Shown here in pieces: positions 2,103-18,757 of a stretch of 64,000 bases of DNA; the first letter of the stretch is position 1, and the number at the start of each line of letters is the position of its first letter. The stretch is from Opitutia bacterium (lineage in GTDB: Bacteria > Verrucomicrobiota > Verrucomicrobiia > Opitutales > Opitutaceae). The translations under genes and the position numbers were made by a program. The stretch spans positions 62,001-126,000 of the forward strand of contig JACPIT010000001.1 in assembly GCA_016187945.1 (NCBI GenBank), written 5' to 3'. The notes under the pieces are model-generated. The model searched no databases and was not told the origin of the DNA. It saw only the letters and a program-made list of their open reading frames with translations.

Positions 2103-2118
2103 TCGTCGGTTTCCACGC

Positions 2119-4305
2119 ATGAAAAACTCCGCTGTTCTCGCACCTTTGTCACTCGCTCGAATTCTCTTCGTCGTAGCGGAAGCCGTGAGGTTTTCGCGTT
2201 CGGGTATCGGCGAAATTCTCACGAGTTCCGCTACTCCGCTTCGTTCACCGTGTCGCCTGCGGTGCGGAATCTACGGCCTCGTCTCGCTCCTCGTGCTGTC
2301 GTCCGCTGCGTCGGCGGCCAGCAGGGCGCTGATCGACACCACGCAATCGCCGCACGCGGTCATGTATATGCCCGATCTCGGCGACGTCCGCTGGCACGGC
2401 GGTCTGCTCGGCGAACGCTTCGAGGTCGCGCGCACGACGATGGTGCCGCACATGGGCGAACTGATGAGCAACCCGGCGACGAGTCCCGCGTGGCGCAATT
2501 ACCGCATCGCCGCCGGGCTGGAGCAGGGGAAGTTCTCCGGCCCGCCGTTCAACGACGGCGATTTTCTCAAATGGTTCGAGGCGCTCGCGCAGGTTTACGC
2601 GGTCACCAAGGATCCCGCGATCGACCAACAGATGGACGAGATCGTCGCGGTCGTCGCGAAGGCCCAGCGCGAGGACGGCTACCTGCACACGCAGACGATC
2701 ATCCCGCAGCGCGCCGGCGAAAAGACGAAGGAGTTCGCCGATCGTGAGCACTTCGAGACCTACAACATGGGTCACCTGATGACGGCCGCCTGCGTCCACT
2801 ATCGCGCGACGGGTAAGACGACCTTGCTCGATTGCGCGCGCAAAGCGGCTGACTATATCGACCGCCTCTGCGCCGAAAAACCGCAGGAGCTCGCGCGCAA
2901 CGCCATCTGCCCTTCGCACTACATGGGCGTGGTGGAGCTTTATCGGGTCACCCGCGAGCCGCGCTACCTCAAGCTCGCGCAGCAACTCATCGAAATCCGC
3001 AGCCTCGTGCCGCCGAACGAGGGGAGCGACCACAACCAGGATCGCATGCCGTTTCGCCAGATGACGCAGGCCGTCGGCCACGCCGTGCGCGCCAACTACC
3101 TCTACGCCGGCGTCGCGGACGTGTTCGCCGAGGACGGCGACAAGACGCTCCTCAAAACGCTCGAGACGATTTCCGAAAACGTCGCCGACCGGAAGCTCTA
3201 CATCACCGGCATGACCGGCGCGCTCTACGACGGCGCGTCGCCCGACGGCGTCGACTACACGCAGCACAAATACATCAAGACCGTCCACCAGTCCTACGGC
3301 CGCGATTACCAGCTCCCGAATCTCACCGCCTACAACGAAACCTGCGCGACGATCGGCTACGGCATGTGGCTCTGGCGCATGCTCGCCGTCTCCGGTGACG
3401 CGGCCTACGCGGACCTCTTCGAGCAGACGCTCTACAACGGCATTCTTCCCGGCATCAGCCTCGACGGCACCCGCTACTTCTACGTCAACGCGCTGAAGAA
3501 ACTCCACGACTTCGACGTGCCGCTCCGCTGGTCGCGCACGCGCGAGGCGAACATCCCGGTGAGCTTCTGCTGCCCGCCGAACGTCGTGCGCACGATCGCC
3601 GAGGCGCACAACTACGTCTACGCGCTCTCCCCGGACACCGCGTGGGTCAACCTCTACGCCGCCAGCACGCTCGACTCACATTGGCTCGACGGCACGCCGA
3701 TCAAGCTCCGCCAGGAAACCGATTACCCGTGGGCCGGCGCCGTGAAAATCGTCGTCGACGAAGCGCCCGCTCGCGACGTGACGCTGAAACTCCGCGTCCC
3801 CGGCTGGCTGCGCGCCGGCGCCGCGACGCTCCGCGTCAACGGTCAGTCCGCATCCGTCGCGCTCCAGCCCGGCACCTACGCCGACGTGAAACGCACCTGG
3901 CAGAAGGGCGACGTCGTGCAGTTCGACATGGAGTTCAAACCGACGCTCTGGGAAGCGAATCCGCTCGTCGAAGAAACCGTCGACCAAGTCGCGATCAAAT
4001 ACGGCCCGCTCGTCTACTGCGTCGAATCGAACGACCTGCCCGCTGGCGTTAAGCTGAAGGACGTCGCGCTCTTTCTGCAAAAGCCCGCCAACTTCACCGC
4101 GCAGCGCGAGCAAATCGCCAACGCTTCCGTGCTCACGCTCACGTTCGACGCGCTCGCGTTGCAGCGCCCCGAGTGGAACGGCAAGCAGCTCTACCGCGAA
4201 ATTGACGGTCAGGCGCCGCGCACGATTGCCGTCAAAGCCGTGCCCTACTACGCGTGGGGCAATCGCGGCGATACCGACATGACCGTCTGGCTTCCCGCCC
4301 GCTAA
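2119..4305 (+). CDS. GH127 family (DUF1680) beta-L-arabinofuranosidase
   Basis: About 728 residues if the ATG at 2119 is used. The core is an (alpha/alpha)6 barrel of the GH127/DUF1680 family, whose characterised members cleave beta-L-arabinofuranosyl linkages. The zinc/catalytic signature is present: Glu407 and Cys409 in YNETC, and Cys484-Cys485 in SFCCPPN, matching the Glu/Cys ligands and cysteine nucleophile of Bifidobacterium HypBA1. A hydrophobic stretch (GLVSLLVLSSAASA) about 50 residues in looks like a signal peptide, so the enzyme is probably exported. The N-terminus is odd: residues 19-39 are encoded by a palindromic repeat (2173-2234), so the true start may be a non-ATG codon downstream of the repeat. 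It lies 16 bases after the kinase and 29 before the MFS gene, likely one operon. Confidence 0.88.
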   Translation: MKNSAVLAPLSLARILFVVAEAVRFSRSGIGEILTSSATPLRSPCRLRCGIYGLVSLLVLSSAASAASRALIDTTQSPHAVMYMPDLGDVRWHGGLLGERFEVARTTMVPHMGELMSNPATSPAWRNYRIAAGLEQGKFSGPPFNDGDFLKWFEALAQVYAVTKDPAIDQQMDEIVAVVAKAQREDGYLHTQTIIPQRAGEKTKEFADREHFETYNMGHLMTAACVHYRATGKTTLLDCARKAADYIDRLCAEKPQELARNAICPSHYMGVVELYRVTREPRYLKLAQQLIEIRSLVPPNEGSDHNQDRMPFRQMTQAVGHAVRANYLYAGVADVFAEDGDKTLLKTLETISENVADRKLYITGMTGALYDGASPDGVDYTQHKYIKTVHQSYGRDYQLPNLTAYNETCATIGYGMWLWRMLAVSGDAAYADLFEQTLYNGILPGISLDGTRYFYVNALKKLHDFDVPLRWSRTREANIPVSFCCPPNVVRTIAEAHNYVYALSPDTAWVNLYAASTLDSHWLDGTPIKLRQETDYPWAGAVKIVVDEAPARDVTLKLRVPGWLRAGAATLRVNGQSASVALQPGTYADVKRTWQKGDVVQFDMEFKPTLWEANPLVEETVDQVAIKYGPLVYCVESNDLPAGVKLKDVALFLQKPANFTAQREQIANASVLTLTFDALALQRPEWNGKQLYREIDGQAPRTIAVKAVPYYAWGNRGDTDMTVWLPAR
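2173..2234. repeat. GTAGCGGAA palindromic repeat in the GH127 N-terminus
   Basis: Arms gtagcggaagccgtgagg and, inverted, gtagcggaactcgtgaga flank a short loop. The element lies between the first ATG and the hydrophobic export signal, which makes the start call uncertain. Confidence 0.75.
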
Positions 4306-4334: not shown

Positions 4335-5615
4335 ATGAGTCAAGTCACCTCACCCGTCTCCGCCGAGCCCGCGCACGGTGCCGAGCACATCACCGCTCAA
4401 CAATGGAAATGGTCCGCGCTCGCGGGCATGGCGTCGTATCTCGACGCCGGTTCCATCGTCGCACTTGGCGCCGGCATGGCGTTGTTCAAAAAAGAATTTG
4501 GCCTCAGCGACGGCATGGTGGGCGCGCTGGCCGCCATCGGACCGAACGCGATCGGTTGCGCCATCGGTGCTTTCCTCGGCGGCTGGCTCGGCGACAAACT
4601 CGGCCGCAAGCGCATCTACCAATACGACCTGATGGTCTATGCGCTGGGCATTCTGATCATCGCGCTGTCGGTGAATGTCGCGATGCTCTTCCTCGGCACC
4701 TTCATCGTCGGCGTCGCCGTCGGCGCGGACGTGCCGACTTCGCTGGCGCTCGTCGGCGAGTTCGCTCCGGCGAAAGCGCGCGGCAAGCTGCTCGGCTTCA
4801 CCCAAGTCGCTTGGTGTCTCGGTCCGGTGATCGTGTTGTGGCTCGCCCTCGCGCTCGCGCCGCTCGAAATGCTCGGCATCCGCATCGTTTTGCTGCACCT
4901 GCTCGTCGTCGCGATCGTGACTTGGGCGCTGCGACAGGGACTGGCGGAGTCCGCCCGCTGGAAGGAAGCCGTGAAGTTTGGCAGCAAGAGCCTCGGCGAG
5001 CTGTTCTCGGGCTCGAACCTGCGCGCGCTCGTCTGGACCGCGACGATCTATCTTTTCTGGAATCTCGCCGCGGGCACGGCCGGCATTTTCAATCCCTACA
5101 TCTTCAAGACGCTGAACGTCGCCACCCAGGCGCAGAGTGTCGGGCTTTCGAGCATGTGGTTTGTGATTACGATGATCGTCACGGTCACCGTGTTCATGAA
5201 ATACGCGGATCGCAGTCACGGAATCCGTCGCGGGCTCTGGGGAATCGGTGCCGTCCTGCAGATCTCCGCTTACGCACTGTTCCTGCTGCTGCCGTTCACC
5301 GTGCCGGTGGTCGTGGCGAACATCGTGCTCTTCGCCGTCGGTTGCGCGCTCGCGGGCGAGGCGACCTACAAGGTTTTCAGCCAGGAGCTCTTTCCGACCA
5401 TGCTGCGCGGCACCGCGCAGGGCGTCACGTTCGGCGTCGCCCGCACCGTGCTCGGCTTCTGGAGCTTCTTCGTCCCGATCCTGGCCAATACCGGCATCAA
5501 ACCGGTCGCCGCGCTGCTCACGCTGTTCCTCGCGATCAGCGGCGTCGTCGGCTTCTTCTGGATGCCCGACACCTCCGGCAAATCGCTCGAGCAGATCGAA
5601 GCCGAGCGCGCCTGA
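4335..5615 (+). CDS. MFS sugar transporter
   Basis: A 426-residue major facilitator with about 12 hydrophobic segments. The loop 2-3 motif GGWLGDKLGRKRIY is typical of sugar porters, and the second half repeats the pattern around KYADRSHGIRRGLWG. It should sit in the inner membrane and import a sugar or short oligosaccharide by proton symport. The start at 4335 places the first membrane span about 30 residues in, which is normal. It lies between a secreted GH127 and a GH78 with no export signal, so a likely cargo is a rhamnose- or arabinose-containing oligosaccharide, or apiose. The substrate cannot be read from sequence. Confidence 0.85.
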   Translation: MSQVTSPVSAEPAHGAEHITAQQWKWSALAGMASYLDAGSIVALGAGMALFKKEFGLSDGMVGALAAIGPNAIGCAIGAFLGGWLGDKLGRKRIYQYDLMVYALGILIIALSVNVAMLFLGTFIVGVAVGADVPTSLALVGEFAPAKARGKLLGFTQVAWCLGPVIVLWLALALAPLEMLGIRIVLLHLLVVAIVTWALRQGLAESARWKEAVKFGSKSLGELFSGSNLRALVWTATIYLFWNLAAGTAGIFNPYIFKTLNVATQAQSVGLSSMWFVITMIVTVTVFMKYADRSHGIRRGLWGIGAVLQISAYALFLLLPFTVPVVVANIVLFAVGCALAGEATYKVFSQELFPTMLRGTAQGVTFGVARTVLGFWSFFVPILANTGIKPVAALLTLFLAISGVVGFFWMPDTSGKSLEQIEAERA

Positions 5616-5727: not shown

Positions 5728-8541
5728 ATGTCCGTTTCTCCCACTCAACTCACCGCGCTTCGCTGCGAATACCTCGTCGATCCGCTCGGCATCGACGAAA
5801 CGAGTCCGCGTCTGAGCTGGCTGCTCGAAAGCGACCGCCGCGGCGCGCGCCAAGTCGCGTATCGCGTCCGCGTCGCCTCGACGCCGGAAAAACTCGCCGC
5901 ACGCGACGTCGACCGCTGGGACAGCGGCCGCGTCGACAGCACGCAGACCGCGCACGTTGCCTATGCCGGCCGCGCGCTGCGCTCGCGCGACGCCTGTTAC
6001 TGGAGCGTCGAAGTCTGGGACGAAACCGGCGCCAGCGTCCGCTCCGCGCCCGCGCATTGGACGATGGGCTTGCTCGACCGCGGCGACTGGACGGCGAAGT
6101 GGATCGCCGCCGCCCCGGAGATCGTTGCGGGCGATCCCGAGGCGATGGCTGCCACGCTGACGGAGCCGGGCACGCCCGCGGTTTTCCGTCGGGATTTTCA
6201 AGTCACCACCGCCGTCAAACGGGCCACGCTCTACGCGACCGCTCGCGGCTTGCTGGAACTTCGCGCCAACGGCCAGCGCGTCAGCGACGACCTCTTCGCG
6301 CCGGAGTGGACCGACTATTTCAAACGCATCCACTACCGCACCTACGACGTGACGACGTTGCTCGCCGCGGGCGCGAACGACCTCACCGTCACGCTCGGCG
6401 ACGGCTGGTGGTCGGGTTTTGTCGGCTGGCAGGAAACGAAAGGCCGCTACGGTTCGCTCGAAAACAGCCTGCTCGTGCAACTCGAGATCGAACTCGCCAG
6501 CGGCTCGTGCGTCGTCGTGGGCACAGATGGCACGTGGCGCTGCGCCACCGGCCCCATTCTTTCGTCGGACCTGCAAATGGGCGAAGTCTACGACGCCCGC
6601 CGCGAAGCGAGGGTAGGGCGAGTCGTCCCCGACGAGCCGCCGTTCGTGGTCGCGCGGGCAGTCGCTTGCCCGCCGCAGATCGACGGCGCGGAAGGCACTC
6701 CGCGCCCCGCCGTCTGGCTGCCGGCCCGCGAAGTCGCCGCACCCGACGCTCCGCTCGTCGCGCAGCGCAGCGAGCCCGTGCGCATCACGGAGACGCGTGC
6801 GCCGGTTTCCCGCACCGAAATCAGCCCTGGCGTCCATCTCTACGACATGGGCCAAAACATGACCGGCTGGATTCGGCTCACGCTCGCAGCGCCCGCCGGC
6901 ACGCGCGTGCAACTGCGCCACGGCGAGCGCCTGAATCCCGACGGCACGCTCTACACCGCCAACCTGCGTCGCGCGAAGGCGACCGACGTCTACGTGTGCC
7001 GCGGCGGTGGCACGGAAATCTTCGAGCCGCACTTCACCTTCCACGGTTTCCAATACGTCGAGCTCACCGCGACCGCCTCGGACAACTGTAACCTATTAGG
7101 TTACACTTTCGCACCCACGCTCGAGACGGTCACGGGGCGCGTCATTCACTCGGCGACACCGCCGGCGGGACATTTCGAGTGCTCGCACGCGGGCGTGAAT
7201 CGCCTATGGCTGAACGGCGTCTGGTCGCAGCGCGACAATTTTCTCTCCGTGCCCACCGACTGCCCGCAGCGCGACGAGCGCCTCGGCTGGACGGGCGACG
7301 CACAGGTGTTCTTCCGCACCGCGACGTGCAACATGGACGTCGCGGCGTTCTTCACGAAGTGGATGATCGACGTCGAGGACGCGCAGACGCCGGACGGCAT
7401 TTTCCCGGACATCGCGCCGCGCCTGCGCGAGGACATTAACTGGGTCGGTCTCGGTAACCTCAGCGGTGCCGCGGGCTGGGCCGACGCGGGCATCATCATC
7501 CCTTACACGTTTTGGCGGGTCTACGGCGACCTGCGCCTCGTCGAACGCCACTGGGGCGCGATGGTGCGCTGGCTCGACTGGATCGAGCGCCACAACCCGA
7601 ACGGTCTTCGCCTCAACCAACTCGGCAACAACTACGGCGACTGGCTCTGCATCCCGAGCGACACCTCGTTCGGCACGCATTCGCCGATGAAGAATCTCCT
7701 CGCGACCGCCTACTGGGCCGACGACGCCGCGAAGATGGCGCGTCTCGCCCGCGTGCTCGGCCGCGACGCCGAGGCGGCGCGCTTCCACGCGATGTTCGAA
7801 AAAGTGCGCGCCGCGTTCCAAGCCGAGTGGGTGCGCCCCGACGGTCGCATCGCGGTCGAGACGCAGACGGCTTGCCTGCTCGCGCTCGCGTTCGACCTGT
7901 TGCCGTCGCACCTGCGCGCGGCCGCCGCCGAGCACCTCGTCGCCAACATCCGCTCTCTCGACTGGCATCTGAGCACCGGCTTCGTCGGCATCGGGCATTT
8001 GAATCCGCAGCTCACGCTCGCGGGGCGCGCCGACGTCGCCTACCGGCTGTTGCTGCAGGAAAGTTATCCGTCGTGGCTCTTCCCCGTGCGGCAAGGCGCC
8101 ACGACGATCTGGGAACGCTGGGATAGCTGGACGATCGCGGGCGGGTTCCACAAGGACGGCATGAACTCCTTCAATCACTACTCGCTCGGCTCCGTCGGCG
8201 AGTGGCTGTTCCGCCACGTGCTCGGCATCGAACTCGACCCGGAGGTGCCGGCCTATCAGCGCTTCGTGCTGCGGCCGTTCGTCGGCGCCGGACTCGACTT
8301 CGCGCGGGGCAGCTATCGCTCGATCCACGGCGAAATCCGCAGCGCGTGGCGACGCGACGGAGCGCGTTTCGAGTGGGAGGTCACGATTCCGGCCAACACC
8401 GGCGCGAGCGTCTTCATTCCGTGCGCGCCGAATGCCGCGGTCGGCACCGACGGTCTTGCGATCCTCGAGCGCACGGACGCCTACGCGCTCTGCGAAGCGC
8501 CCGCGGGCAGCTACACGTTCACGAGCATCGTCGCCGTCTGA
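5728..8541 (+). CDS. GH78 alpha-L-rhamnosidase, apparently cytoplasmic
   Basis: A 937-residue GH78 enzyme that releases terminal L-rhamnose. Order of domains: an N-terminal fibronectin-like module (SPRLSW, YRVRVAST, YWSVEVWD), the rhamnosidase beta-sandwich (GLLELRANGQRVSDDLFAPEWTDY), a second sandwich ending near HGFQYVELT, then the (alpha/alpha)6 barrel with CPQRDERLGWTGDAQ and, late, TTIWERWDSW, the family's acid/base region. There is no signal peptide, so it probably acts inside the cell on imported oligosaccharides. Two palindromic repeats lie in frame: one at 6613-6639 in the middle sandwich and a 19-base palindrome at 7087-7105 just before the barrel. It is followed after one base by the RLP gene, so the two are translationally linked. 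Confidence 0.92.
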   Translation: MSVSPTQLTALRCEYLVDPLGIDETSPRLSWLLESDRRGARQVAYRVRVASTPEKLAARDVDRWDSGRVDSTQTAHVAYAGRALRSRDACYWSVEVWDETGASVRSAPAHWTMGLLDRGDWTAKWIAAAPEIVAGDPEAMAATLTEPGTPAVFRRDFQVTTAVKRATLYATARGLLELRANGQRVSDDLFAPEWTDYFKRIHYRTYDVTTLLAAGANDLTVTLGDGWWSGFVGWQETKGRYGSLENSLLVQLEIELASGSCVVVGTDGTWRCATGPILSSDLQMGEVYDARREARVGRVVPDEPPFVVARAVACPPQIDGAEGTPRPAVWLPAREVAAPDAPLVAQRSEPVRITETRAPVSRTEISPGVHLYDMGQNMTGWIRLTLAAPAGTRVQLRHGERLNPDGTLYTANLRRAKATDVYVCRGGGTEIFEPHFTFHGFQYVELTATASDNCNLLGYTFAPTLETVTGRVIHSATPPAGHFECSHAGVNRLWLNGVWSQRDNFLSVPTDCPQRDERLGWTGDAQVFFRTATCNMDVAAFFTKWMIDVEDAQTPDGIFPDIAPRLREDINWVGLGNLSGAAGWADAGIIIPYTFWRVYGDLRLVERHWGAMVRWLDWIERHNPNGLRLNQLGNNYGDWLCIPSDTSFGTHSPMKNLLATAYWADDAAKMARLARVLGRDAEAARFHAMFEKVRAAFQAEWVRPDGRIAVETQTACLLALAFDLLPSHLRAAAAEHLVANIRSLDWHLSTGFVGIGHLNPQLTLAGRADVAYRLLLQESYPSWLFPVRQGATTIWERWDSWTIAGGFHKDGMNSFNHYSLGSVGEWLFRHVLGIELDPEVPAYQRFVLRPFVGAGLDFARGSYRSIHGEIRSAWRRDGARFEWEVTIPANTGASVFIPCAPNAAVGTDGLAILERTDAYALCEAPAGSYTFTSIVAV
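6613..6639. repeat. GTAGGGCGAGTCGTCC repeat inside the GH78 gene
   Basis: Almost identical to the element at 575-600, but here read in frame as VGRVVPDEP in the GH78 middle domain. The TAG of GTAG is out of frame, so translation continues. Confidence 0.75.
7087..7105. repeat. 19-base palindrome TGTAACCTATTAGGTTACA in GH78
   Basis: Perfect palindrome apart from the central base, read in frame as CNLLGY. An identical copy lies at 24020-24038, and both are followed by a TTTCGC word. It is AT-rich compared with the gene around it. Confidence 0.85.
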
Positions 8542-8542: not shown

Positions 8543-9817
8543 ATGGAGCGCGTCACCGCCACCTACCTGATCGAAACGCCGCTGCCGGTCGAAAAGGCCG
8601 CCGCGACGCTCGCGGGCGAGCAATCTTCCGGCACGTTTGTCGCCGTCCCCGGCGAAACCGAGGAACTGAAGCAGCGCTTCGCCGCGCGGGTCGAGTCGAT
8701 CAAGCCGCTCGAGTCCGTCGCCGCGCCCGCGATCCCGACCGGCCGCGCTCCCGCGCCGAGTTACCAGCGCGCCGAGGTGAAGGTGTCGTGGTCGATCGAG
8801 AACTTCGGCACGAATCTGCCGACGCTCGTCTCGACGCTCCAAGGCAACCTCTACGAACTCGCGCAGTTCTCCGGCCTGAAGCTGATGGATTTCGACGTGC
8901 CGCCGTCGTTCGCCGCGAAGTTCCGCGGCCCCGCCTTCGGCATCGCCGGCACGCGCCGCCTCACCGGCGTCGAAGCCCGCCCGCTCATCGGCACCATCAT
9001 CAAGCCGAGCATCGGTCTTTCGCCCGCGCAGACCGCCGAGATGGTGCGCGTGCTCGTGGAAGCCGGCATCGATTTCGTGAAGGACGACGAGCTGATGGCC
9101 GACCCGCCGCACTCGCCGTTCGACGCGCGCGTCGACGCGATCATGCGCGTCGTCAACGACCACGCGCAGCGCACCGGCAAGAAGGTGATGTTCGCCTTCA
9201 ACATCAGCGACGAACTCGACGCCATGCAGCGCCACTACGACAAGATCGTCGCGAGCGGCGGCACGTGCGCGATGATCAGCGTCAACAGCGTCGGTCTCGC
9301 CGGCACAAAAAAACTTTGCGATCGCGGCCAGATGGCGATCCACGGCCACCGTAACGGCTGGGGCATGCTCAACCGCCATCCGCTGCTCGGCATCGAGTTC
9401 TCCGCGTTTCAAAAACTGCAGCGTCTCGCCGGCGTCGACCAACTCCACGTCAACGGCATCGCGAATAAGTTTTGGGAAAGCGACGACTCGGTCGTGCGCT
9501 CGATCGCTTCGTGTCGCGCCGCCGAACCGCTCGGCAAACCGGTGTTGCCCGTCGTCTCGTCCGGCCAGTGGGGCGGCCAAGCGCCCGAGACGTGGCGTCG
9601 CACGCAAACCGTCGATCTCCTCTACATGGCGGGCGGCGGCATCCAGGCGCACCCCGACGGCGCCGCAGCCGGCGTGCGTTCGCTTCAACTCTGGTGGGAA
9701 GCCGCCGTCGAAGGACTGACGGTCGAGCAGGCCGTCGCCAAGTATCCGTTGCTCGCCAGATCGCAGGCGAAGTTCGGCGTAGCGCCGGCTTCAGCCGGCC
9801 CCAAGGACTCGCGCTAA
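8543..9817 (+). CDS. RuBisCO-like protein (form IV), candidate 3-oxo-isoapionate-4-phosphate enzyme
   Basis: A 424-residue RuBisCO large-chain homologue. Key residues align with true RuBisCO: Lys154 (GTIIKPS; Lys175), the metal-carbamate triad Lys180, Asp182 and Glu183 (FVKDDE; Lys201, Asp203, Glu204), His269-Arg270 (His294-Arg295), Lys309 in loop 6 (Lys334), Ser340, and the phosphate-binding glycines 364-366. The HRNGWG and SSGQWGGQ segments depart from CO2-fixing forms. The DUF1537 kinase gene follows directly. The two characterised RLP-plus-DUF1537 systems are 3-oxo-isoapionate-4-phosphate decarboxylase and transcarboxylase/hydrolase of D-apionate catabolism, so one of those activities is inferred. 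Autotrophic RuBisCO is unlikely: no small subunit or phosphoribulokinase is present. The last ~14 residues are encoded by a repeat. Confidence 0.9.
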   Translation: MERVTATYLIETPLPVEKAAATLAGEQSSGTFVAVPGETEELKQRFAARVESIKPLESVAAPAIPTGRAPAPSYQRAEVKVSWSIENFGTNLPTLVSTLQGNLYELAQFSGLKLMDFDVPPSFAAKFRGPAFGIAGTRRLTGVEARPLIGTIIKPSIGLSPAQTAEMVRVLVEAGIDFVKDDELMADPPHSPFDARVDAIMRVVNDHAQRTGKKVMFAFNISDELDAMQRHYDKIVASGGTCAMISVNSVGLAGTKKLCDRGQMAIHGHRNGWGMLNRHPLLGIEFSAFQKLQRLAGVDQLHVNGIANKFWESDDSVVRSIASCRAAEPLGKPVLPVVSSGQWGGQAPETWRRTQTVDLLYMAGGGIQAHPDGAAAGVRSLQLWWEAAVEGLTVEQAVAKYPLLARSQAKFGVAPASAGPKDSR

Positions 9818-9849
9818 TCCGACTAGACCGGCCGAAGCCTGCCCTACCC
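9779..9849. repeat. GTAGCGCCGGCTTCAGCCGG repeat at RLP 3' end
   Basis: Inverted repeat with arms gtagcgccggcttcagccgg and ccggccgaagcctgccctac. It encodes the tail VAPASAGPKDSR of the RLP and its TAA stop, then runs on to 8 bases before the next gene. Same family as 16104-16151, 30386-30506, 57102-57175 and 59309-59333. Confidence 0.8.
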
Positions 9850-9856
9850 ACGCACC

Positions 9857-11173
9857 GTGACTTCACTCGCTCCCGCCCAACTCCGCCTCGCGTATTTCGG
9901 CGATGATTTCACCGGCTCAACCGACGCACTCGAATTCCTCGCGCGCGCCGGCCTGCGCACCGCGCTCTTTCTCGAACCGCCGTCGCGCGAGCGGCTGGCT
10001 GCGATGCCGCCGCTCGACGCCGTCGGCGTCGCCGGCCTGACGCGCTCGCTGCCGCCGGCCGAAATGGAAACGGTGTTACGACCCGCGTTCGCCGCGCTGC
10101 GCGGACTGGCTCCGCGCCACGTGCACTACAAGGTGTGCTCCACCTTCGATTCGTCGCCGCAGATCGGCAGCATCGGACGCGCGATCGATGTCGGCGTCTC
10201 GATTTTCGGCGGGCGCTACGTGCCGCTCCTCGTCGGTGCGCCGGCACTCGGGCGCTATTGCGCATTCGGAAATCTTTTCGCGCGCATGGGCATCGGCAGC
10301 GACGGCGAAATTTTTCGCCTCGATCGCCACCCGTCGATGAGCCGCCATCCGGTCACGCCCGCCGATGAGGCGGACTTGCGGCTGCACCTGGCAAAACAAA
10401 CGGCGAAACGCATCGGCCTCTTCGACGTGCTGAAGCTGGACTTGCCCGCCGGCGATGCGCACGCCGCGCTCGAGCGTCTCGTCGCGGGCGGCGCGGAGAT
10501 CGTGCTGTTCGACGTGATGCGCGCCGAGCAACTGGCGCGCATCGGCGCGCTGATCGATTCGGCCGCGGGCGACGCGCCTGCGTTCTCTGTCGGCTCGTCA
10601 GGCATCGAGATGGCGCTCGGCGCGCATTGGGCGGAGCAGGGGAGCGTGCGGTCGCGCACCGACTGGCCACCGCCCGCCCGCGTGGACCGTATGCTCGTAG
10701 TCTCCGGCAGTTGCTCGCCGGTGACGGCGGGACAAATCGATTGGGCGCTCGCCCACGGTTTCGTCGGTGTGCCGCTCGACGCGCATACATTGGCGATCGA
10801 TCCGGCGATCGCGGCGGCGCGCGAGGCGCTCCGCGCTGGCAAAAGTCCGATCGTTTTCACGGCGCGCGGTCAGCAGACCGCTGCGCCGGCTCCAGCGGCC
10901 AAGCTCGGCCGTGCGCTCGGGACGATCTCGCGCATACTCGTCGAATCGGAATCGCTCTCTCGCGTGCTCGTGGCGGGCGGCGATACGTCGAGCTACGCGG
11001 CGCGCGCGCTCGGCGTCGAAGCTGTCGAAATGATCGCACCGCTCGCCCCCGGCGCGCCGCTGTGTCGTGCGCACTCGACAAGTCGCGCGGTTGACGGCCT
11101 CGAGGTGAATTTCAAGGGCGGCCAAGTCGGCGCGCCCGACTACTTCGGCGCCGTGCAGCGCGGCGCGCTCTAA
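9857..11173 (+). CDS. DUF1537 four-carbon acid sugar kinase family (candidate 3-oxo-isoapionate kinase)
   Basis: A 438-residue protein of the DUF1537 kinase family, which phosphorylates acid sugars with ATP. The N-terminal substrate domain begins with GDDFTGSTDALE (Asp16, Asp17, Asp23) and has the HYKVCSTFDSSPQIGSIG block near residue 95. The C-terminal nucleotide domain ends with VAGGDTSSYAARALG and LEVNFKGGQVG. The GTG at 9857 is the start that retains the first beta-strand. Directly after the RLP gene, its expected job is to make the 4-phosphate of 3-oxo-isoapionate that the RLP cleaves. This is inferred from the published D-apionate pathways; other four-carbon acid sugars remain possible. 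Confidence 0.88.
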   Translation: MTSLAPAQLRLAYFGDDFTGSTDALEFLARAGLRTALFLEPPSRERLAAMPPLDAVGVAGLTRSLPPAEMETVLRPAFAALRGLAPRHVHYKVCSTFDSSPQIGSIGRAIDVGVSIFGGRYVPLLVGAPALGRYCAFGNLFARMGIGSDGEIFRLDRHPSMSRHPVTPADEADLRLHLAKQTAKRIGLFDVLKLDLPAGDAHAALERLVAGGAEIVLFDVMRAEQLARIGALIDSAAGDAPAFSVGSSGIEMALGAHWAEQGSVRSRTDWPPPARVDRMLVVSGSCSPVTAGQIDWALAHGFVGVPLDAHTLAIDPAIAAAREALRAGKSPIVFTARGQQTAAPAPAAKLGRALGTISRILVESESLSRVLVAGGDTSSYAARALGVEAVEMIAPLAPGAPLCRAHSTSRAVDGLEVNFKGGQVGAPDYFGAVQRGAL

Positions 11174-11181
11174 ATTTTTCC

Positions 11182-11844
11182 ATGAAACGCAAGACGCTCG
11201 CTCTCGTTCACACCTCCGCGACGCTCGTCCCGGTTTTCCAACAGCTCTGCAAGGCGCAACTGCCGAACGTCGACACGTTCAACATCGTCGACGACAGCCT
11301 CGTGCGCGCCATCGGCGCGAAAGGCGGTCTCACTGCCGACATCGCGCGCCGCGTGCAGTCCTACATCACCTCCGCCGAGGCGGGCGGCGCAGACTACGTG
11401 CTCGTCACCTGCTCGTCGATCGGGCCCGCGGTCGAGGCGTCGGCGGCGTTCTCCGCCGTGCCGGTGCTGCGCGTCGATCAACCGATGGCGGATCAGGCGG
11501 TGCAAACCGGTCGCCGCATCGGCGTCATCGCGACGCTGCCGACGACGCTCAACCCCACCAAGGATCTCGTGCAGCGGCGTGCGGTCGCGGCGGGCAAGTC
11601 GATCGAACTTACCGCGGTGCTGGTCGAAGGCGCGTTCGAAGCGCTGATGTCCGGCGACGCGGCGAAACACGACGCACTGGTCGCGACCGCGCTGCGCACG
11701 CTCGCTTCGCACGTCGACGTGATCGTGCTCGCGCAAGCGTCGATGGCGCGCGTGGTCGAGACGCTCGCGCCGGAAGACCGCCGCATCCCGATCCTCGCCA
11801 GTCCGCCGCTCGCGATCGCGCACCTCGCGAAGGTGCTTTCGTAG
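11182..11844 (+). CDS. Asp/Glu racemase-fold protein with one catalytic cysteine
   Basis: A 220-residue protein of the aspartate/glutamate/hydantoin racemase superfamily, which works on carbanions next to carboxylates. The first cysteine motif is present (VTCSSIGP, Cys77), but the second motif, normally containing Cys, reads LAQASM with Ala186. A two-base racemase with two cysteines is therefore unlikely. The family also includes single-cysteine decarboxylases such as arylmalonate decarboxylase, and isomerases. It starts 8 bases after the kinase and precedes the BASS transporter, so it probably acts on an acid in the same RLP pathway. The actual reaction is unknown. Its TAG stop lies in a repeat. 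Confidence 0.75.
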   Translation: MKRKTLALVHTSATLVPVFQQLCKAQLPNVDTFNIVDDSLVRAIGAKGGLTADIARRVQSYITSAEAGGADYVLVTCSSIGPAVEASAAFSAVPVLRVDQPMADQAVQTGRRIGVIATLPTTLNPTKDLVQRRAVAAGKSIELTAVLVEGAFEALMSGDAAKHDALVATALRTLASHVDVIVLAQASMARVVETLAPEDRRIPILASPPLAIAHLAKVLS

Positions 11845-11895
11845 CGCAGGCGTCCCGCCTCCACTCCGAAAGAGCAGGCGAGACGCCTGCGCTAC
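11841..11895. repeat. GTAGCGCAGGCGTCCCGCCT inverted repeat
   Basis: Arms gtagcgcaggcgtcccgcct and aggcgagacgcctgcgctac pair almost fully. The left GTAG holds the stop codon of the upstream gene. Confidence 0.85.
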
Positions 11896-11913
11896 TTTCT
11901 ACCCCGATTCCCC

Positions 11914-13191
11914 ATGTTCGTTTTCCGGAAATTCTGTCTCGGTCTCGCCGCCGTCTCGCTGCTCGCGACGTTCGCCAGCCTCGCGCTCGGCCATGCTGCC
12001 GTCTGGTCGCCGGCCGCGGTGCTTGCGGCCGTTTCGCTCGCCATCGGTCTCGGCGCGGTGCCGTCGCTCAAAGGCTACCAGTTCACCGCGTGGATCGTCG
12101 CCGCGGTCGTGGCCGCGATGATCTATCCGAACGCGTTTCTGAAAGTCGGCGATTTCGATCTGCGCAACAAGTGGCTCATCCTTCTCGTGATTCAGACCGT
12201 GATGTTCGGCATGGGCACGCAGATGAGCCTGCACGATTTCTCCGGCGTCGTGAAAACGCCGCGCGGCGTGCTCGTCGGCATCATCTGTCATTTCTCGGTG
12301 ATGCCGCTCGTCGGCTTCGGGCTGACAAAGCTCTTCGCGTTTCCGCCGGAGATCGCGGCGGGGATCATTCTCATCGGCTCGTGTTCGAGCGGCCTCGCGT
12401 CGAACGTCATGGCCTATCTCGCGCGCTCGAATCTCGTGCTCTCGGTTACGGTCACGGCGATCACGACGCTCGTCGCGCCGTTCATGACGCCGCTGCTGAT
12501 GAAGCTGCTCGCGGGGACGCTCGTCGAAGTAAAGTTTCTCAACATGATGATCGAGATCATCAAGATCGTCATCGTGCCGATCGCCGCGGCGCTGATTCAC
12601 GACCACCTGAAGCACATCGCGGCGTCGAGCTACCGCAAGTGGGTCGTCGCGCAACTCGTCGCGGCGGCGGCGGTGATCGGCATCTTCGTCGCGCACGACC
12701 GTCCCGAGGTGACGGCGCTGCCGGCCAATGCCCAACTCGCGTTCGAGCTTGCCGGCTTTCTCCTCGCGTCGATCCCGGTCGGCGTCGCGTATCACCAGCT
12801 CACGCGCCTGCTGCCGAAACTCGATGCATGGATGCCGCTCTTCTCGATGGCGGGCATCGTCTACTTCACGACCGTGACGACCGCAGCGGGCCGCGACAAT
12901 CTGCTGAAGGTCGGCGCGCTGCTCTTCGTGGCATCGGTGATCCACAACGCTGCCGGCTACTTTTTCGGCTACTGGCTCAGCCGCGCGGCTGGGCTCGACA
13001 AGAGTTCGGCGCGTTCGGTGGCATTCGAGGTCGGCCTGCAAAACGGTGGCATGGCGTCCGGCCTCGCGGGTGCGATGGGGAAACTCGGCACCGTCGGTCT
13101 CGCGCCGGCAATTTTCAGCCCGTGGATGAACATCTCCGGATCGATCCTGGCGAATTTCTGGCACAAGCGTCCGCCGGACGATTTGAGGTAG
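11914..13191 (+). CDS. BASS-family (bile acid:sodium symporter-like) transporter
   Basis: A 425-residue integral membrane protein with about 10-12 hydrophobic helices. The BASS signatures are GMGTQMSLHDF in the N-terminal half, the proline/glycine-rich crossing CSSGLASNVMAYLARSN in the middle, and FEVGLQNGGMASGLA near the end. Bacterial members carry small organic anions such as bile acids, pantothenate or keto-acids, driven by sodium. As the last gene of the RLP/kinase unit it is a good candidate for apionate or a related sugar-acid importer (inference). About two extra N-terminal helices come before the usual family core. The stop TAG lies within a repeat. Confidence 0.85.
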   Translation: MFVFRKFCLGLAAVSLLATFASLALGHAAVWSPAAVLAAVSLAIGLGAVPSLKGYQFTAWIVAAVVAAMIYPNAFLKVGDFDLRNKWLILLVIQTVMFGMGTQMSLHDFSGVVKTPRGVLVGIICHFSVMPLVGFGLTKLFAFPPEIAAGIILIGSCSSGLASNVMAYLARSNLVLSVTVTAITTLVAPFMTPLLMKLLAGTLVEVKFLNMMIEIIKIVIVPIAAALIHDHLKHIAASSYRKWVVAQLVAAAAVIGIFVAHDRPEVTALPANAQLAFELAGFLLASIPVGVAYHQLTRLLPKLDAWMPLFSMAGIVYFTTVTTAAGRDNLLKVGALLFVASVIHNAAGYFFGYWLSRAAGLDKSSARSVAFEVGLQNGGMASGLAGAMGKLGTVGLAPAIFSPWMNISGSILANFWHKRPPDDLR

Positions 13192-13276: not shown

Positions 13277-14341
13277 CTAACTCTGTTTCGCCGATGCGCG
13301 TTTCGTCACGCGCTTCACCGTCTTCCCCGGCTGCCACGAGGCGCCGATAAGCGTCGCACGCGGATAGGACGGCACGCCGCACTCGTTGTTGTGGAGATGG
13401 CTGATCACCATGTCGACGGCCGCCTCGCCGGTGCGGCCGTTGTGCTGGTCCATGCCGGCCCAGTCGCGATCTTCGGCGCGGCGCTCGAGTTGCAGCAGCC
13501 CGATGTCGTGCGGAATCTTGAGGCCGCGTGCTTCGATCAGGCGGCGGACAAAACGGTAGAGAGTGAACACCACATCGGGTTTCTCGCGCTCGAGCCACGC
13601 GTAGAATTCCCGCGGATCGTTGCGCGCCGCCTCGACCGCGTAGAACGGTGCGACGCGATCGGCCGCGGGCAGGACTTGCTGTCCGATCATCATGCCGGAC
13701 GTGAAGCGTCCTTCGACGAGCCGGTCGATGCGCTCGTCGATGACGAGCGCCGGACGGCGATAACCAAGCGCGAGCGCGCGCTCGCACGCCTGGAGCACGA
13801 GCGCGTGGTGATCGACGCAGCAAAACGACAGCGTCGGCTCGTGCGTGCGCACGCCGGTGACGACGCAGGCGTGCGCCTGCCAGGTGCTGGCGAAACGCTC
13901 CGGCAGGCGGTTTTCCTCCATGAGGCCGACGACGATCACGCCGCGAATGCCGCGCGCGCGCAGGATGCGGTTGAGGCGCGTGCCGTCGAGTTGCGGATCG
14001 TGCAGCCAGAATTCGTCGATGCCGTAGCCCTGCGCTGCGGCGCGGCGACGGATGCCGGCGACGTAGGTCGGGATCGTCGGGTGCGACTTGAAGGCGTCGC
14101 GCTCGCGATGGGCGTTGAGAACAGCGAGCGTGTGTTTCGATTTTCCCTGGGCCTGCTTCCGCAGCTCGGCCATGAGATGCGAGACGACGGGGTTGCGGGC
14201 GTAGCCGAGGCGTTGCGCGGCGGCGTGCACGCGCTCGCGGGTGGCGAGCGGGATTTGCGGATCGTGACGCAGCGCGAGCGAGATGGTGTTCTTGGACACC
14301 TTCAAATCGCGCGCGAGCGTCGCCATCGTGACGGAAGCCAT
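13277..14341 (-). CDS. LacI-family transcriptional regulator of the arabinose genes
   Basis: A 354-residue regulator with a LacI helix-turn-helix at the N-terminus (TMATLARDLKVSKNTISLALR) and a periplasmic-binding-like effector domain (IRGVIVVGLMEE, RPALVIDERIDR). The start at 14341 puts MASVTMATLA first, as usual for the family; an ATG 18 bases upstream is less likely. It is divergent from araB across about 98 bases containing a perfect CTTGACGGTCAAG palindrome. Similar sites lie ahead of the GH106 gene and the araF-like gene. I infer that it represses or activates the whole arabinose set in response to a pentose. The effector is not proven. Confidence 0.85.
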   Translation of the reverse strand: MASVTMATLARDLKVSKNTISLALRHDPQIPLATRERVHAAAQRLGYARNPVVSHLMAELRKQAQGKSKHTLAVLNAHRERDAFKSHPTIPTYVAGIRRRAAAQGYGIDEFWLHDPQLDGTRLNRILRARGIRGVIVVGLMEENRLPERFASTWQAHACVVTGVRTHEPTLSFCCVDHHALVLQACERALALGYRRPALVIDERIDRLVEGRFTSGMMIGQQVLPAADRVAPFYAVEAARNDPREFYAWLEREKPDVVFTLYRFVRRLIEARGLKIPHDIGLLQLERRAEDRDWAGMDQHNGRTGEAAVDMVISHLHNNECGVPSYPRATLIGASWQPGKTVKRVTKRASAKQS

Positions 14342-14366
14342 GCGCGACGACCAAGGCACACAGAGG

Positions 14367-14379
14367 CTTGACGGTCAAG
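14367..14379. promoter_or_regulatory. Candidate LacI-regulator operator CTTGACGGTCAAG
   Basis: Odd perfect palindrome in the 98-base divergent gap between the regulator and araB. An 11/13 match (reverse orientation) lies upstream of the araF-like gene at 26709-26721, and a half-site match lies at 18506-18514. Confidence 0.5.
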
Positions 14380-14439
14380 TGCCGGGGCCATCGCTCGAAC
14401 GGGTGAGGCAACTAGGCTCTGGCCGCTGTTCCCCTCACC

Positions 14440-16107
14440 ATGGCCAAAGACGTTTTCTCCATCGGCATCGACTACGGCACCAACTCGGTTCGCGCGCTCG
14501 TCGTGCGCTGTCGCGACGGCAAAGAGTTCGGCTCCTGCGTCGTGAATTATCCCAGCGGCCACCAAGGCGTGCTGCTCGATCCGCGCGACCACAATGTCGC
14601 CCGCCAAAATCCGGCCGACTACCTGCTCGGTCTCGAGAAATCCGTCAAGGGCGCGCTCGCGCAGGCGAAGAAGCAGCGCGGTTTCTCCGCGGCGCAGGTG
14701 ATCGGCCTCGGCGTCGACACGACCGGCTCGAGCCCGATCCCGGTCGACGCGAAGAACGTCCCGCTCGCGCTCGACAAGAAGTGGGAGAAAAACCTTAACG
14801 CGCAGTGCTGGCTCTGGAAGGACCACACGAGCTGGCGCGAGGCGGCGAAGATCACCGAACTCGCCGCGGCGCACCGCCCGCAGTTCATCGCGAAGTGCGG
14901 CAACACCTATTCCTCCGAGTGGTTCTGGGCGAAGCTCTGGCATTGCCTCAACGTCGACCCGAAACTGTTCGCCGCCGCCTACTCGTGGGTGGAGCTGTGC
15001 GACTGGATTCCGTCCGTGCTCGCGGGCGTGACCGATCCGCGCGCGGTGAAGCGCGGCGTGTGCGCCGCCGGACACAAGGCGCTCTACGCGGAAGAGTGGG
15101 GCGGTTTGCCCGACAAGGAATTTCTCGCGCTGCTCGACCCGCAGCTCGCCGATCTGCGCGACCGTCTCTACGAGAAGGCGCACGACGCGAGCGAGTCCGC
15201 CGGCAATCTCTCGCCCGAGTCGGCGAAGATTCTCGGGCTGCCCGCAGGCATTCCGATCGCGATCGGCGAGTTCGACGTGCACTACGGCGCGATCGGCTGC
15301 GGCGTCGCCGAAGGCACGATCGTGAAAGTCATCGGCACCTCGACGTGCGATTGCGGCGTCGTTTCCGCGGCGAAGACCGTGCCGGACATCCCGGGCATCT
15401 GCGGCATCGTGAAGGGCGCGATCCTACCGGGTTTCTACGGCATCGAGGCGGGCCAGAGCGCCGTGGGCGACATCTTCAAGTGGTATGTCGAGGGCGTGCT
15501 GAAGGACGTGAAACTCCACGCCGCGCTCACCGCCGAAGCCGCGAAGCTCGCGCCCGGCCAGAGCGGCTTGCTCGCGCTGGATTGGAACAACGGCAACCGC
15601 ACGATCCTCGTCGACCAACGACTCACCGGCTTGCTCGTCGGCCAAACGCTCTACACGACGCAGGCGGAGATTTACCGCGCGCTGATCGAAGCGACGGCGT
15701 TCGGCGCCCGCGCGATCATCGAGCGCATCAAGGAATACGGCGTGCCGATCGATCGCGTCGTCTGCGCCGGCGGCATTGCGGAGAAAAATCCGCTGCTGAT
15801 GCAGATTTACGCGGACATCACCGGTTGCACGATGCTGGTCGCCGGCTCATCGCAAGCCTGCGCGCTCGGCTCGGCCGTCAGCGCCGCCGTGCTCGCGGGC
15901 ACGCACCCGGATTTCCCGACCGCGCAGAAGAAGATGACCTCGCTCAAAAAGGTCGCCTACAAGCCGCGCGCCGCCGCGCAGAAAACCTACGACCAGCTCT
16001 ACTCGCTCTACCGCCAGCTCCACGACAGCTTCGGCGGAAAGAACAAGTCCGCCGACCTCAGCGGCGTGATGAAGGAACTGCTCACGATCAAGGAATCGGT
16101 GAAGTAG
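14440..16107 (+). CDS. araB: Ribulokinase
   Basis: A 555-residue FGGY kinase matching ribulokinase in length and motifs: [16 protein letters not shown] at the start, [52 protein letters not shown] and [18 protein letters not shown]. It phosphorylates L-ribulose from AraA to L-ribulose 5-phosphate for AraD; both partner genes follow on the same strand. The order B-A-D matches the classic arabinose operon. Expression is probably controlled by the divergent LacI-type regulator. The stop TAG is the TAG of a GTAG-ended repeat, so the last residues (ESVK) sit right against it. Confidence 0.95.
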
Positions 16108-16204
16108 CGCCGGTCTCCGACCGGCGTCGGCCAGTCGCAGACTGGCCCTACCTCCCGCTTCGCCGCTCTCCCTCTACTCGCTACTCACTACCCGCTACTC
16201 GCTA
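16104..16204. repeat. GTAGCGCCGG inverted repeat plus short ctactcg reiterations
   Basis: 16104-16151 is an inverted repeat with accggcgtcggcc in the loop region and a closing ccctac. 16160-16204 follows with degenerate tandem ctactcgctactc words. Together they fill the araB-araA gap. Confidence 0.65.
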
Positions 16205-16216
16205 CTTCTCCCTCCC

Positions 16217-17725
16217 ATGTCCGTCATCAATCTCTCCACTCCTGAAATCTGGTTCGTCTGCGGTTCGCAGCACCTCTACGGCCCCGGCCCGCTGAAGCAG
16301 GTCGCCGCCAACGCCCAAGCCGTCGTCGACGGCCTCGTGAAATCCAAGCGCCTGCCGCTCCCGCTGAAATTCAAGGCGCTGCTCGTCGACTCCGACCAGA
16401 TCGCGAAGGTCTGCCTCGAAGCCAACGCCGACGCGAACTGCGCCGGCCTCGTGCTCTGGATGCACACGTTCTCGCCGTCGAAGATGTGGATTCGCGGCCT
16501 CACGTCGCTCAAGAAGCCGTTCCTGCACCTGCACACGCAGTTCAACCGCGATCTGCCGTGGTCGACGATCGACATGGATTTCATGAACCTCAACCAGGCC
16601 GCCCACGGCGACCGCGAGGCCGGGTTCATCCACACGCGCCTCCGCCTCGGCCGCAAGGTCGTCGTCGGCCATTGGAGCGACAGCGAAGTGCAGGACCGCA
16701 TCGCGGCTTGGATGAGCGCGGCGCACGCCTGGCACGATTGGCAGGGCGCCAAGGTCGTCCGCTTCGGCGACAACATGCGCTACGTCGCCGTCACCGAAGG
16801 CGACAAGGTTAGCAGCGAAATCCGTTTCGGTTTTGAAGTGAACACCTACGGCGTCGGCGACCTCGTCGCGAAGGTCAACGCCGTCAGCGACGCCGACATC
16901 GGCGCGCTCTGCGCCGATTACGAAAAACTCTACACGGTCGTTCCCGCACTCAAGAAGGGCGGCAAGCGCCACGACGAGCTGCGCTACAGCGCCCGCCTCG
17001 AGCTCGGCATGAGCGCATTCCTCTCCGAAGTCGGCGCGAAGGCCTTCACCGACACCTTCGAAGACCTGCACGGGCTGCGCCAGCTCCCCGGCATGGCCAC
17101 GCAACGCCTGATGGGCGCCGGCTACGGCTTCGGTGGCGAAGGCGACTGGAAGACCGCCGCACTCGTCCGCGCCATGAAGGTCATGGCCGGCGGCGAGCGC
17201 ACCTCCTTCATGGAGGACTACACGTATCATCTCTCGCCGAAGGGCCACCAAGTGCTCGGCGCGCACATGCTCGAGATTTGCCCGTCGATCGCCTCCGGCA
17301 AGCCCGCCGTCGAGGTCCACCCGCTCGGCATCGGCGGCAAGGAAGACCCGGTGCGCTTCGTGTTCGACGCGCCCGCCGGCGAAGCGCTCAACGCCTGCCT
17401 CGTCGACCTCGGCAACCGTTTCCGCCTCGTCGTGAACGAAGTCAAAGCCGTGAAGACGCCGAAGCTCCCGAGGCTCCCCGTCGCGCGCGCCGTGTGGGAA
17501 TGCAAACCGGACTTCAAGACGGCGTGCGCCGCGTGGATCTACGCCGGCGGAGCGCACCACACCGGTTACAGCTACGTCGTCACGAGCGAAATGCTCGAAG
17601 ACTTCGCGACGATCGCCGGCGTCGAGACGGTGCACATCAACGCCGACACGACGCTCCCGCAACTCAAGCAGGATCTCCGCAACAACGAGGTATACTACCA
17701 CCTCGCCCAAGGCATCCGCGTCTGA
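16217..17725 (+). CDS. araA: L-arabinose isomerase
   Basis: A 502-residue protein, the expected length for AraA, which interconverts L-arabinose and L-ribulose using manganese. Recognisable blocks are [10 protein letters not shown] at the N-terminus, [26 protein letters not shown], and the metal-binding glutamates in [15 protein letters not shown] and SFMEDYTYH. It is second in the araBAD-like unit, with a repeat in each flanking gap. Cytoplasmic. No anomalies were seen. Confidence 0.96.
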
Positions 17726-17735
17726 TTCAAGCAAG

Positions 17736-17787
17736 GTAGGGCGAGTCCTCCGGACGAGCCGCGGCTCACCGAGACGGTTCGCCCTAC
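17736..17787. repeat. GTAGGGCGAGTCCTCC inverted repeat
   Basis: Arms gtagggcgagtcctccggac and an inverted ...gttcgccctac. It is intergenic between araA and araD and belongs to the family seen at 575-600 and 6613-6639. Confidence 0.8.
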
Positions 17788-17800
17788 CATTTCCGTCACC

Positions 17801-18493: not shown

Positions 18494-18505
18494 TCGCCCG
18501 AATTG

Positions 18506-18516
18506 ATTGACGGTTT
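18506..18516. promoter_or_regulatory. Possible half-operator TTGACGGT upstream of GH106
   Basis: The left eight bases equal the operator in the regulator-araB gap, but the second half-site is degenerate. It lies 13 bases after araD and about 240 before the GH106 start. Confidence 0.25.
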
Positions 18517-18518
18517 GA

Positions 18519-18602
18519 GGTGGAGCGCGTTGACCCCAACGCGCTCGAACGCGCGACCGGCGGCGAGAGTCTCCGAATGCGTTGAAGTCAACGCGTTCCA
18601 CC
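18519..18602. repeat. GTGGAGCGCGTTGACCCCAA repeat
   Basis: Inverted pair: ggtggagcgcgttgacccca and, inverted at the right end, gaagtcaacgcgttccacc. A sister copy lies at 25548-25608. The rest of the 264-base gap before the GH106 gene shows no gene. Confidence 0.8.
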
Positions 18603-18757
18603 CGTCTCAATCGCACGCGCGCAGCCCGCTCGGACCGCGACAGCACATGACCCGACGGTGGGCATGCGTTCGCCGCGCCTTACGAAATCGGGGACGCTGC
18701 GGGATTTCCCGGAAGCTTTTCTGCCGGCACTCGGGTAGACTGCGGGCGCTGTCCGCT

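Follow-up and report, generated by a model that had tools for sequence, protein, structure and literature searches.

A conserved cassette of genes for a RuBisCO-like protein, a DUF1537 kinase, a racemase-fold protein, and a transporter, proposed to catabolize L-aceric acid of rhamnogalacturonan-II

The closest described systems to the locus considered here are the D-apionate/3-oxo-isoapionate pathways, in which RuBisCO-like proteins (RLPs) of Agrobacterium and Xanthobacter carry out decarboxylation and transcarboxylation/hydrolysis of 3-oxo-isoapionate-4-phosphate (PMC6302742, citing Carter et al. 2018). For apiose itself, a gene cluster with its locus tags is given for E. coli SE15 in PMC13001218, and PMC5698469 and PMC10850190 report that BT1003 hydrolyzes aceric acid (3-C-carboxy-5-deoxy-L-xylose) from rhamnogalacturonan-II (RG-II). 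Here, we analyze a 64,000-nucleotide stretch of an Opitutia bacterium genome (assembly GCA_016187945.1, positions 62,001 to 126,000 of contig JACPIT010000001.1, abbreviated C2 in coordinates), hereafter the window, in which positions 8543 to 13191 encode an RLP, a DUF1537 kinase, a protein with the aspartate/glutamate racemase fold, and a BASS-family transporter. At the sequence level, these four genes constitute a conserved cassette that is linked to glycoside hydrolase family 127 (GH127), is found in genomes of which nearly all those searched lack a strong match to the D-apionate pathway enzyme ApnO, and encodes an RLP with a RuBisCO-like active site. An earlier note on this DNA had regarded them as a D-apionate catabolic unit; we consider, with moderate confidence, that they instead form a catabolic cassette for the L-aceric acid of RG-II. 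The four genes are as follows:

8543-9817, + strand: RLP, 424 aa, with the Pfam domains RuBisCO_large and RuBisCO_large_N
9857-11173, + strand: DUF1537 sugar-acid kinase, 438 aa, GTG start, with SBD_N and NBD_C
11182-11844, + strand: Asp/Glu-racemase-fold protein, 220 aa, with the Pfam domain Asp_Glu_race
11914-13191, + strand: BASS-family transporter (SBF), 425 aa, with PanS as its best NCBIfam match (223 of 400 bits)

The four open reading frames (ORFs) are uninterrupted and share a strand, where 39, 8, and 69 bases separate one from the next, so the RLP and kinase are indeed adjacent and intact, as the earlier note had held. Homologs of the kinase, the racemase-fold protein, and the BASS transporter are all present in 67 of the 70 loci that have at least 5 kb downstream of the RLP (out of 82 examined), and the arrangement is therefore not a matter of chance; the exceptions are L084, with no partner, L104, without the kinase, and L132, without the transporter. 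These loci come from a set of 88 that were chosen by RLP similarity and clustered, consisting of 80 loci from named genomes, in which at least that many occur, and 8 others. Of the 88, 82 were used for flank counts and the 62 that extend 9 kb or more to either side of the RLP for partner-gene counts. The claim that these genes make up a unit is thus upheld in the form of a conserved four-gene cassette, but the same-strand run to which they belong starts earlier, before the window.

One RLP match is present in the source genome; in a Verrucomicrobiota panel, 12 of 387 genomes have the RLP at E < 1e-50. The same 12 genomes have the racemase-fold protein at E < 1e-85, and 5 further genomes of the panel, which do not have the RLP, match the racemase-fold protein more weakly. 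Named genomes yielded at least 80 RLP loci, in Verrucomicrobiota, Bacteroidota, Planctomycetota, and Balneolota (the last from one genus, Fodinibius). On a plasmid of Rufibacter tibetensis, all four genes are present in identical order, and genes for a pectinesterase and a GH28 enzyme lie nearby; in Dyadobacter loci, the cassette genes are present but split into two divergent blocks. In one public record, the four genes are labeled "ribulose-bisphosphate carboxylase large subunit family protein," "four-carbon acid sugar kinase family protein," "aspartate/glutamate racemase family protein," and "bile acid:sodium symporter family protein."

The earlier note had assigned the RLP and kinase to the 3-oxo-isoapionate type. 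This assignment holds insofar as the nearest NCBIfam models are OiaX for the RLP (505 bits) and OiaK for the kinase (442 bits), but both proteins fall short of the 700-bit cutoffs of the respective equivalogs, NF042437 and NF042436. Pedobacter relatives of the RLP and kinase score 518 and 438 bits against the same models, five other RLPs with adjacent kinases of this kind score 353 to 469 bits against OiaX, and the kinases at two further loci of the RLP-kinase type score 421 and 426 bits against OiaK, also below 700; annotated OiaX proteins reach 785 and 740 bits. The OiaX model had no match in Bacteroides ihuae, one of 14 control genomes. A role in methionine salvage is ruled out by the scores of the RLP against the MtnW equivalog models (166 of 409 and 127 of 513.6 bits, versus 505 bits for OiaX). 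In an IQ-TREE phylogeny of 35 of 97 RLP sequences, which was built without the characterized Xanthobacter transcarboxylase/hydrolase sequence, the cassette RLPs form one clade with an ultrafast bootstrap (UFBoot) value of 100, sister to OiaX with a UFBoot value of 99, and OiaX lies on a long branch; FastTree on the 97 sequences assigned the cassette clade a support of 0.22 once the tree had been rerooted.

De novo clustering of the neighboring genes at the 88 loci, in which representatives of the commoner neighbor families were annotated, showed that, the four core genes aside, no family recurs as often as GH127 (44 loci, with the next family in 16). Among the 62 loci with full flanks, GH127 is present in 31, GH106 in 18, AplK in 9, and AptA in 6, and in 23 of the 41 GH127-bearing loci (of 82), the GH127 gene lies on the strand of the RLP gene, no more than 3.5 kb upstream of it. 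Of the cassette genomes whose fetched flanks were free of GH127, 18 were picked, and every one of these has it elsewhere in the genome, at 654 to 766 bits. In the Verrucomicrobiota panel, GH127 reaches at least 650 bits in 12 of the 12 RLP genomes versus 2 of the 375 others, G351 and G143 (Fisher 4.6e-21, with genomes treated as independent, which they are not). A second panel covered 379 genomes from the family of a Pedobacter genome, with the cassette represented by an RLP search alone; 44 have the RLP (10 at 518 to 608 bits and the others at no less than 676), and GH127 is found at E < 1e-150 in 43 of these 44 versus 83 of the 335 others (Fisher 3.1e-22, on the same simplifying treatment of genomes as independent). 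That the RLP nearly always occurs with GH127, and GH127 often without the RLP, is the pattern expected if GH127 frees the sugar that the cassette uses.

The GH127 protein of the window scores 693 bits against PDB entry 5mqo versus 366 bits against the next chain, and a Pedobacter GH127 protein adjoining a cassette scores 846 versus 379 bits. We take 5mqo to be BT1003, which makes BT1003 the closest solved GH127 enzyme. It is conceivable that GH127 instead marks general use of RG-II and that the true substrate is a different branched or keto acid from RG-II or from plants, for instance 2-carboxyarabinitol (hamamelonate), Dha, or Kdo, inasmuch as other RG-II families also occur near it: BT_1020-like proteins in 7 and GH141 in 9 of the 88 loci, besides the GH106 enzymes counted above, with apiosidase-family proteins in 3. 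However, GH127 stands far above every other partner in both counts, and Dha and Kdo contain no C(OH)(COOH)-C=O unit; we judge this explanation improbable.

Apiose likewise occurs in RG-II, and an apiosidase-family (PF13204) match lies on the same contig, before the window (C2:28918-29688). Taken together with the affinity of the RLP and kinase to OiaX and OiaK, this lends some weight to the view that the cassette degrades D-apionate/3-oxo-isoapionate derived from apiose and that an unrelated enzyme, which could be the racemase-fold protein, substitutes for ApnO. Against this view, a separate gene set for apiose adjoins the cassette at this locus, where sequence identity to the E. coli SE15 counterparts is 49% for the AptA-like, 40% for the AptB-like, and 34% for the AplK-like protein. 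Homology and gene clustering mark these genes as a putative D-apulose kinase/apulose-4-phosphate transketolase set; the best NCBIfam match of its FGGY kinase is glycerol kinase. The upstream fucose-isomerase-like gene is more likely to encode the apiose isomerase. We disfavor it as an aceric-acid isomerase: it keeps with aptA and is found in 6 of the 62 cassette loci.

For ApnO, our query was the "phosphogluconate dehydrogenase C-terminal" protein that follows the TIM-like and RpiB-like genes in a Rhizobium OiaX locus; we take these three genes to be those named ApnO, EryH, and EryI. The search covered 44 cassette genomes, namely, the 12 RLP genomes of the Verrucomicrobiota panel and 32 hand-picked from the 80 named loci of the clustered set, mostly isolates. 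ApnO had no strong match in 43 of the 44 and no match in the window's own genome, while both control records matched; the TIM-like and RpiB-like (EryH/EryI-like) queries matched in 0 of the 62 cassette loci. ApnO is an NAD-dependent oxidoisomerase, and the racemase fold is not known to bind NAD, which further argues against its replacement by the racemase-fold protein. A close AptA match (at least 65%) is present in 12 of the 12 Verrucomicrobiota cassette genomes, so co-occurrence cannot separate apiose from aceric acid in that phylum. Among three Bacteroidota cassette genomes, Dyadobacter has a close AptA (61%), but Pedobacter G391 and Flavobacterium G402 have GH127 with AptA matches of 39%. 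It is mainly the missing ApnO, the redundancy with the apiose genes, and this pairing of GH127 with weak AptA in Bacteroidota that tell the two sugars apart. With the model cutoffs missed, ApnO and the downstream isomerases missing, and apiose provided with its own genes, D-apionate is demoted from the assignment originally made to a rival that we regard as unlikely, if less so than the other alternatives.

Several lines converge on aceric acid as the favored substrate: the commonest cassette partner is a BT1003-type GH127 enzyme, apiose is already served by the neighboring AptA/AptB/AplK-like genes, a strong ApnO match is missing from nearly all cassette genomes searched and EryH/EryI-like genes from the 62 loci, and the four conserved genes match the four steps needed. 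From these we infer every substrate and every reaction of the cassette. The BT1003-type GH127 enzyme would free aceric acid outside the cytoplasm, and the BASS transporter, the proposed importer of the acid, would take up the anion. The racemase-fold protein, with its single Cys as the base, would convert the aldose to the ketose CH2OH-CO-C(OH)(COOH)-CHOH-CH3, and the DUF1537 kinase would phosphorylate the CH2OH adjoining the ketone to give POCH2-CO-C(OH)(COOH)-CH(OH)CH3. This 1-phosphate of the aceric-acid ketose (3-C-carboxy-5-deoxy-pentulose 1-phosphate), a beta-keto acid of the form POCH2-CO-C(OH)(COOH)-R, would be the substrate of the RLP, which might decarboxylate it, recarboxylate it at the neighboring carbon, and hydrolyze the product, probably to 3-phosphoglycerate and lactate; alternatively, plain decarboxylation would yield 5-deoxy-pentulose 1-phosphate. 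In the apionate pathway, the RLP acts on POCH2-CO-C(OH)(COOH)-CH2OH, and the aceric-acid ketose is 3-oxo-isoapionate with its CH2OH replaced by CH(OH)CH3 (the carbonyl having moved from C1 to C2). Aceric acid hence fits the enzymes, since the RLP and kinase are nearest to those acting on 3-oxo-isoapionate and the ketose has the same core.

The active site of the RLP bears on which of the two outcomes is the likelier. We compared 97 RLPs (86 from cassettes, 3 OiaX, and 8 others), with L090, L139, L145, and L146 dropped for a stop codon or a short match, and assigned RuBisCO residue numbers presumptively, from motifs. Glu, Asn, and His occupy the positions equivalent to E60, N123, and H327 in 86 of 86 cassette RLPs and in 8 of 8 other non-OiaX RLPs. 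The three OiaX proteins instead carry Asp, Gly, and Gln, a set found in none of the cassette RLPs. The positions equated with Lys175, Lys201, Asp203, Glu204, His294, Lys334, and Ser379 are unchanged throughout the 97 sequences, and those equated with W66, K177, H298, L335, and G381 are altered in the cassette RLPs and in the others too. Most of the catalytic residues of RuBisCO are retained in the RLP of the window, where residues peculiar to the cassette clade occupy positions 46, 100, 113, 232, 260, and 321. We infer that the Asp/Gly/Gln set marks decarboxylase RLPs and that the cassette RLP, as far as its residues indicate, can still carboxylate and hydrolyze. The retention of the RuBisCO-like Glu/Asn/His set thus supports the aceric-acid reading and makes the chemistry of the transcarboxylase/hydrolase RLP (XiaX) likelier than plain decarboxylation.

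Were the RLP nevertheless to stop at decarboxylation of the aceric-acid derivative, an aldolase would be expected to split the 5-deoxy-pentulose 1-phosphate into dihydroxyacetone phosphate and acetaldehyde. Decarboxylation of a beta-keto acid is the simplest RLP step, the cassette RLPs are sister to the decarboxylase OiaX, and an araD-like class II aldolase-family gene (17801-18493) lies 4.6 kb downstream. However, this gene occurs in 3 of 20 loci, no aldolase appears among the recurrent neighbor families that were annotated (not every family was), and the cassette RLP retains the very residues that are changed in OiaX; we accord this variant a low probability. The more specific proposition, in which the aceric-acid pathway involves a new RLP cleavage to 3-phosphoglycerate and lactate and a racemase-fold isomerase and is common to Bacteroidota, Verrucomicrobiota, Planctomycetota, and Balneolota, we advance only tentatively.

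The structural model of the racemase-fold protein (mean pLDDT 95.8) aligns with 1jfl over 208 residues (Z 21.1, rmsd 2.5), confirming the Asp/Glu-racemase fold. Cys77, in a TCSS motif, is kept in 39 of 39 aligned proteins, and the site of the second Cys is taken by Gln185, in an Ala-Gln-Ala-Ser-Met (AQASM) motif that is invariant in the same 39. An ordinary two-Cys racemase is thereby ruled out, with only the N-terminal Cys present. We also reject an arylmalonate-decarboxylase role: that enzyme retains the C-terminal Cys, the reverse of the pattern seen here, and is among the structural matches with lower TM-scores. RpiB-type isomerases provide a precedent for a 1,2-proton shift in which a single Cys serves as the base. 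We propose the protein as the aceric-acid aldose-ketose isomerase because one step of the pathway, isomerization, and one conserved gene are left over. Among its paralogs, one that is 33% identical has genes for Dak1/Dak2 kinase domains and an RpiB-like isomerase beside it and a GH95 gene upstream; this region (L055:3447-7805) perhaps specifies another sugar pathway, and another, among loci L052 to L058, adjoins a distant DUF1537 kinase. These neighborhoods suggest sugar chemistry but are not decisive.

A number of observations weigh against the aceric-acid assignment. The role proposed for the racemase-fold protein is unprecedented as far as known; we know of no aldose-ketose isomerase with this fold. 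An ApnO-like gene is clear in G375 (E 2.8e-71) and marginal in G295 and G408, and in Verrucomicrobiota, AptA tracks the cassette as well as GH127 does, both of which favor D-apionate. GH127 does not imply the cassette, as the 83 Pedobacter-family genomes with GH127 and no RLP attest, and in G668, which has the most divergent RLP of the 44, no GH127 was found at the threshold. G143 (L141) has an isomerase-aptA-aptB-aplK-GH127-GH78 run without the RLP or cassette in the 20 kb read, and it offers a natural comparison for the role of the cassette; in G351, the other such Verrucomicrobiota genome, GH127 alone is visible on a 13-kb contig. Further, the BT1003 type was judged by score to 5mqo rather than by active-site residues, and PMC5698469 describes GH127 enzymes with activity toward other sugars (carrageenan).

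The genes upstream of the cassette lie on the same strand, with those for the FGGY kinase, GH127, the major facilitator superfamily (MFS) transporter, and GH78 overlapping or almost touching and GH78 ending 1 base ahead of the RLP start codon:

3-575, + strand: 3' part of the aptB-like transketolase subunit gene, inside which the window opens
609-2102, + strand: FGGY kinase, candidate AplK (D-apulose kinase)
1936-4305, + strand: GH127 closest to BT1003, proposed aceric-acid hydrolase; the internal ATG at 2119 is the likelier start
4335-5615, + strand: MFS sugar transporter (listed ORF from 4254)
5728-8541, + strand: GH78 alpha-L-rhamnosidase (listed ORF from 5248; 5728 is the likelier start)

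The run opens before the window, whose start corresponds to C2:62001, with the fucose-isomerase-like gene, the product of which carries an L-fucose-isomerase C-terminal domain, and the aptA/aptB-like genes (C2:58924-62575). A scan for transcription signals found 0 promoter-like sites (1.0 in shuffles) and 15 terminator-like sites (11.7 in shuffles) and is uninformative. Downstream (13277-22747) are a divergent LacI-type regulator gene (13277-14359), araB, araA, the araD-like gene, and a GH106 gene (18503-22747), the product of which has 6q2f and 5mqm as its closest solved relatives. We exclude the LacI-type gene and araBAD as parts of the cassette, since no more than 4 of the 20 loci subjected to clustering contain their clusters. 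The GH127, GH78, and GH106 enzymes and other RG-II families bear out the RG-II degradation setting that had been recognized earlier. Farther upstream on the contig, before the window, a GH141-domain protein (C2:52621-54627) and the apiosidase-family protein suggest a larger RG-II region. In several Verrucomicrobiota loci, a gene for an enolase-superfamily, sugar-acid-dehydratase-like protein directly precedes the RLP (e.g., L041:10881-12053). Dyadobacter loci L079, L085, and L086 bring together SusC/SusD-like, BT_1020-like, GH127, RLP, kinase, racemase-fold, BASS, apiosidase-family, and AplK-like proteins and are an attractive model system for RG-II.

If the aceric-acid assignment is correct, bacteria of several phyla import and break down this acidic sugar, a rare branched constituent of plant cell walls, by means of a relative of RuBisCO. 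Four testable genes would be named for the use of freed aceric acid, and a gene set labeled by family names alone in a public record would gain a function. RLPs would gain a new substrate and probably a new reaction, and the Asp/Glu-racemase fold would acquire a chemistry that is new as far as known. No catabolic pathway for free aceric acid was found in the literature searched, which left most subscription papers outside and is weak evidence of absence. The RLP-kinase-racemase-BASS unit was likewise not found in the apionate, apiose, and RLP literature searched, including PMC13001218, PMC6302742, PMC8920986, and PMC10103415, consistent with the remark in the earlier note that the racemase-fold protein and BASS transporter were not parts familiar from the described pathways.

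In comparison with known systems, the D-apionate/3-oxo-isoapionate RLP pathways are the nearest relatives in sequence. In them, too, a DUF1537 kinase adjoins the RLP (OiaK with either OiaX or the transcarboxylase/hydrolase RLP), and the substrate proposed for the cassette has the same POCH2-CO-C(OH)(COOH)- core. The cassette differs in its additional racemase-fold and BASS genes, its GH127 partner, and an active-site set unlike that of OiaX, as well as in its scores below the model cutoffs and the lack of a strong ApnO match (43 of 44 genomes) and of EryH/EryI-like genes (62 loci). The D-apiose transketolase pathway, which is not known to use an RLP, DUF1537 kinase, or racemase-fold protein, is a neighboring pathway distinct from the cassette. 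Genes like those of its Pectobacterium and E. coli versions (ApsI, AplK, AptA, and AptB; PMC13001218) lie immediately upstream in the same run. With RG-II degradation in Bacteroides thetaiotaomicron, for which the sources consulted do not describe the fate of the freed aceric acid, this locus has in common a BT1003-type GH127, GH78, and GH106, and relatives of the cassette loci further share BT_1020-like, GH141, and apiosidase-family proteins. Finally, the cassette protein shares its fold and N-terminal Cys with the Asp/Glu racemases but, unlike them, has Gln185 in place of the C-terminal Cys.

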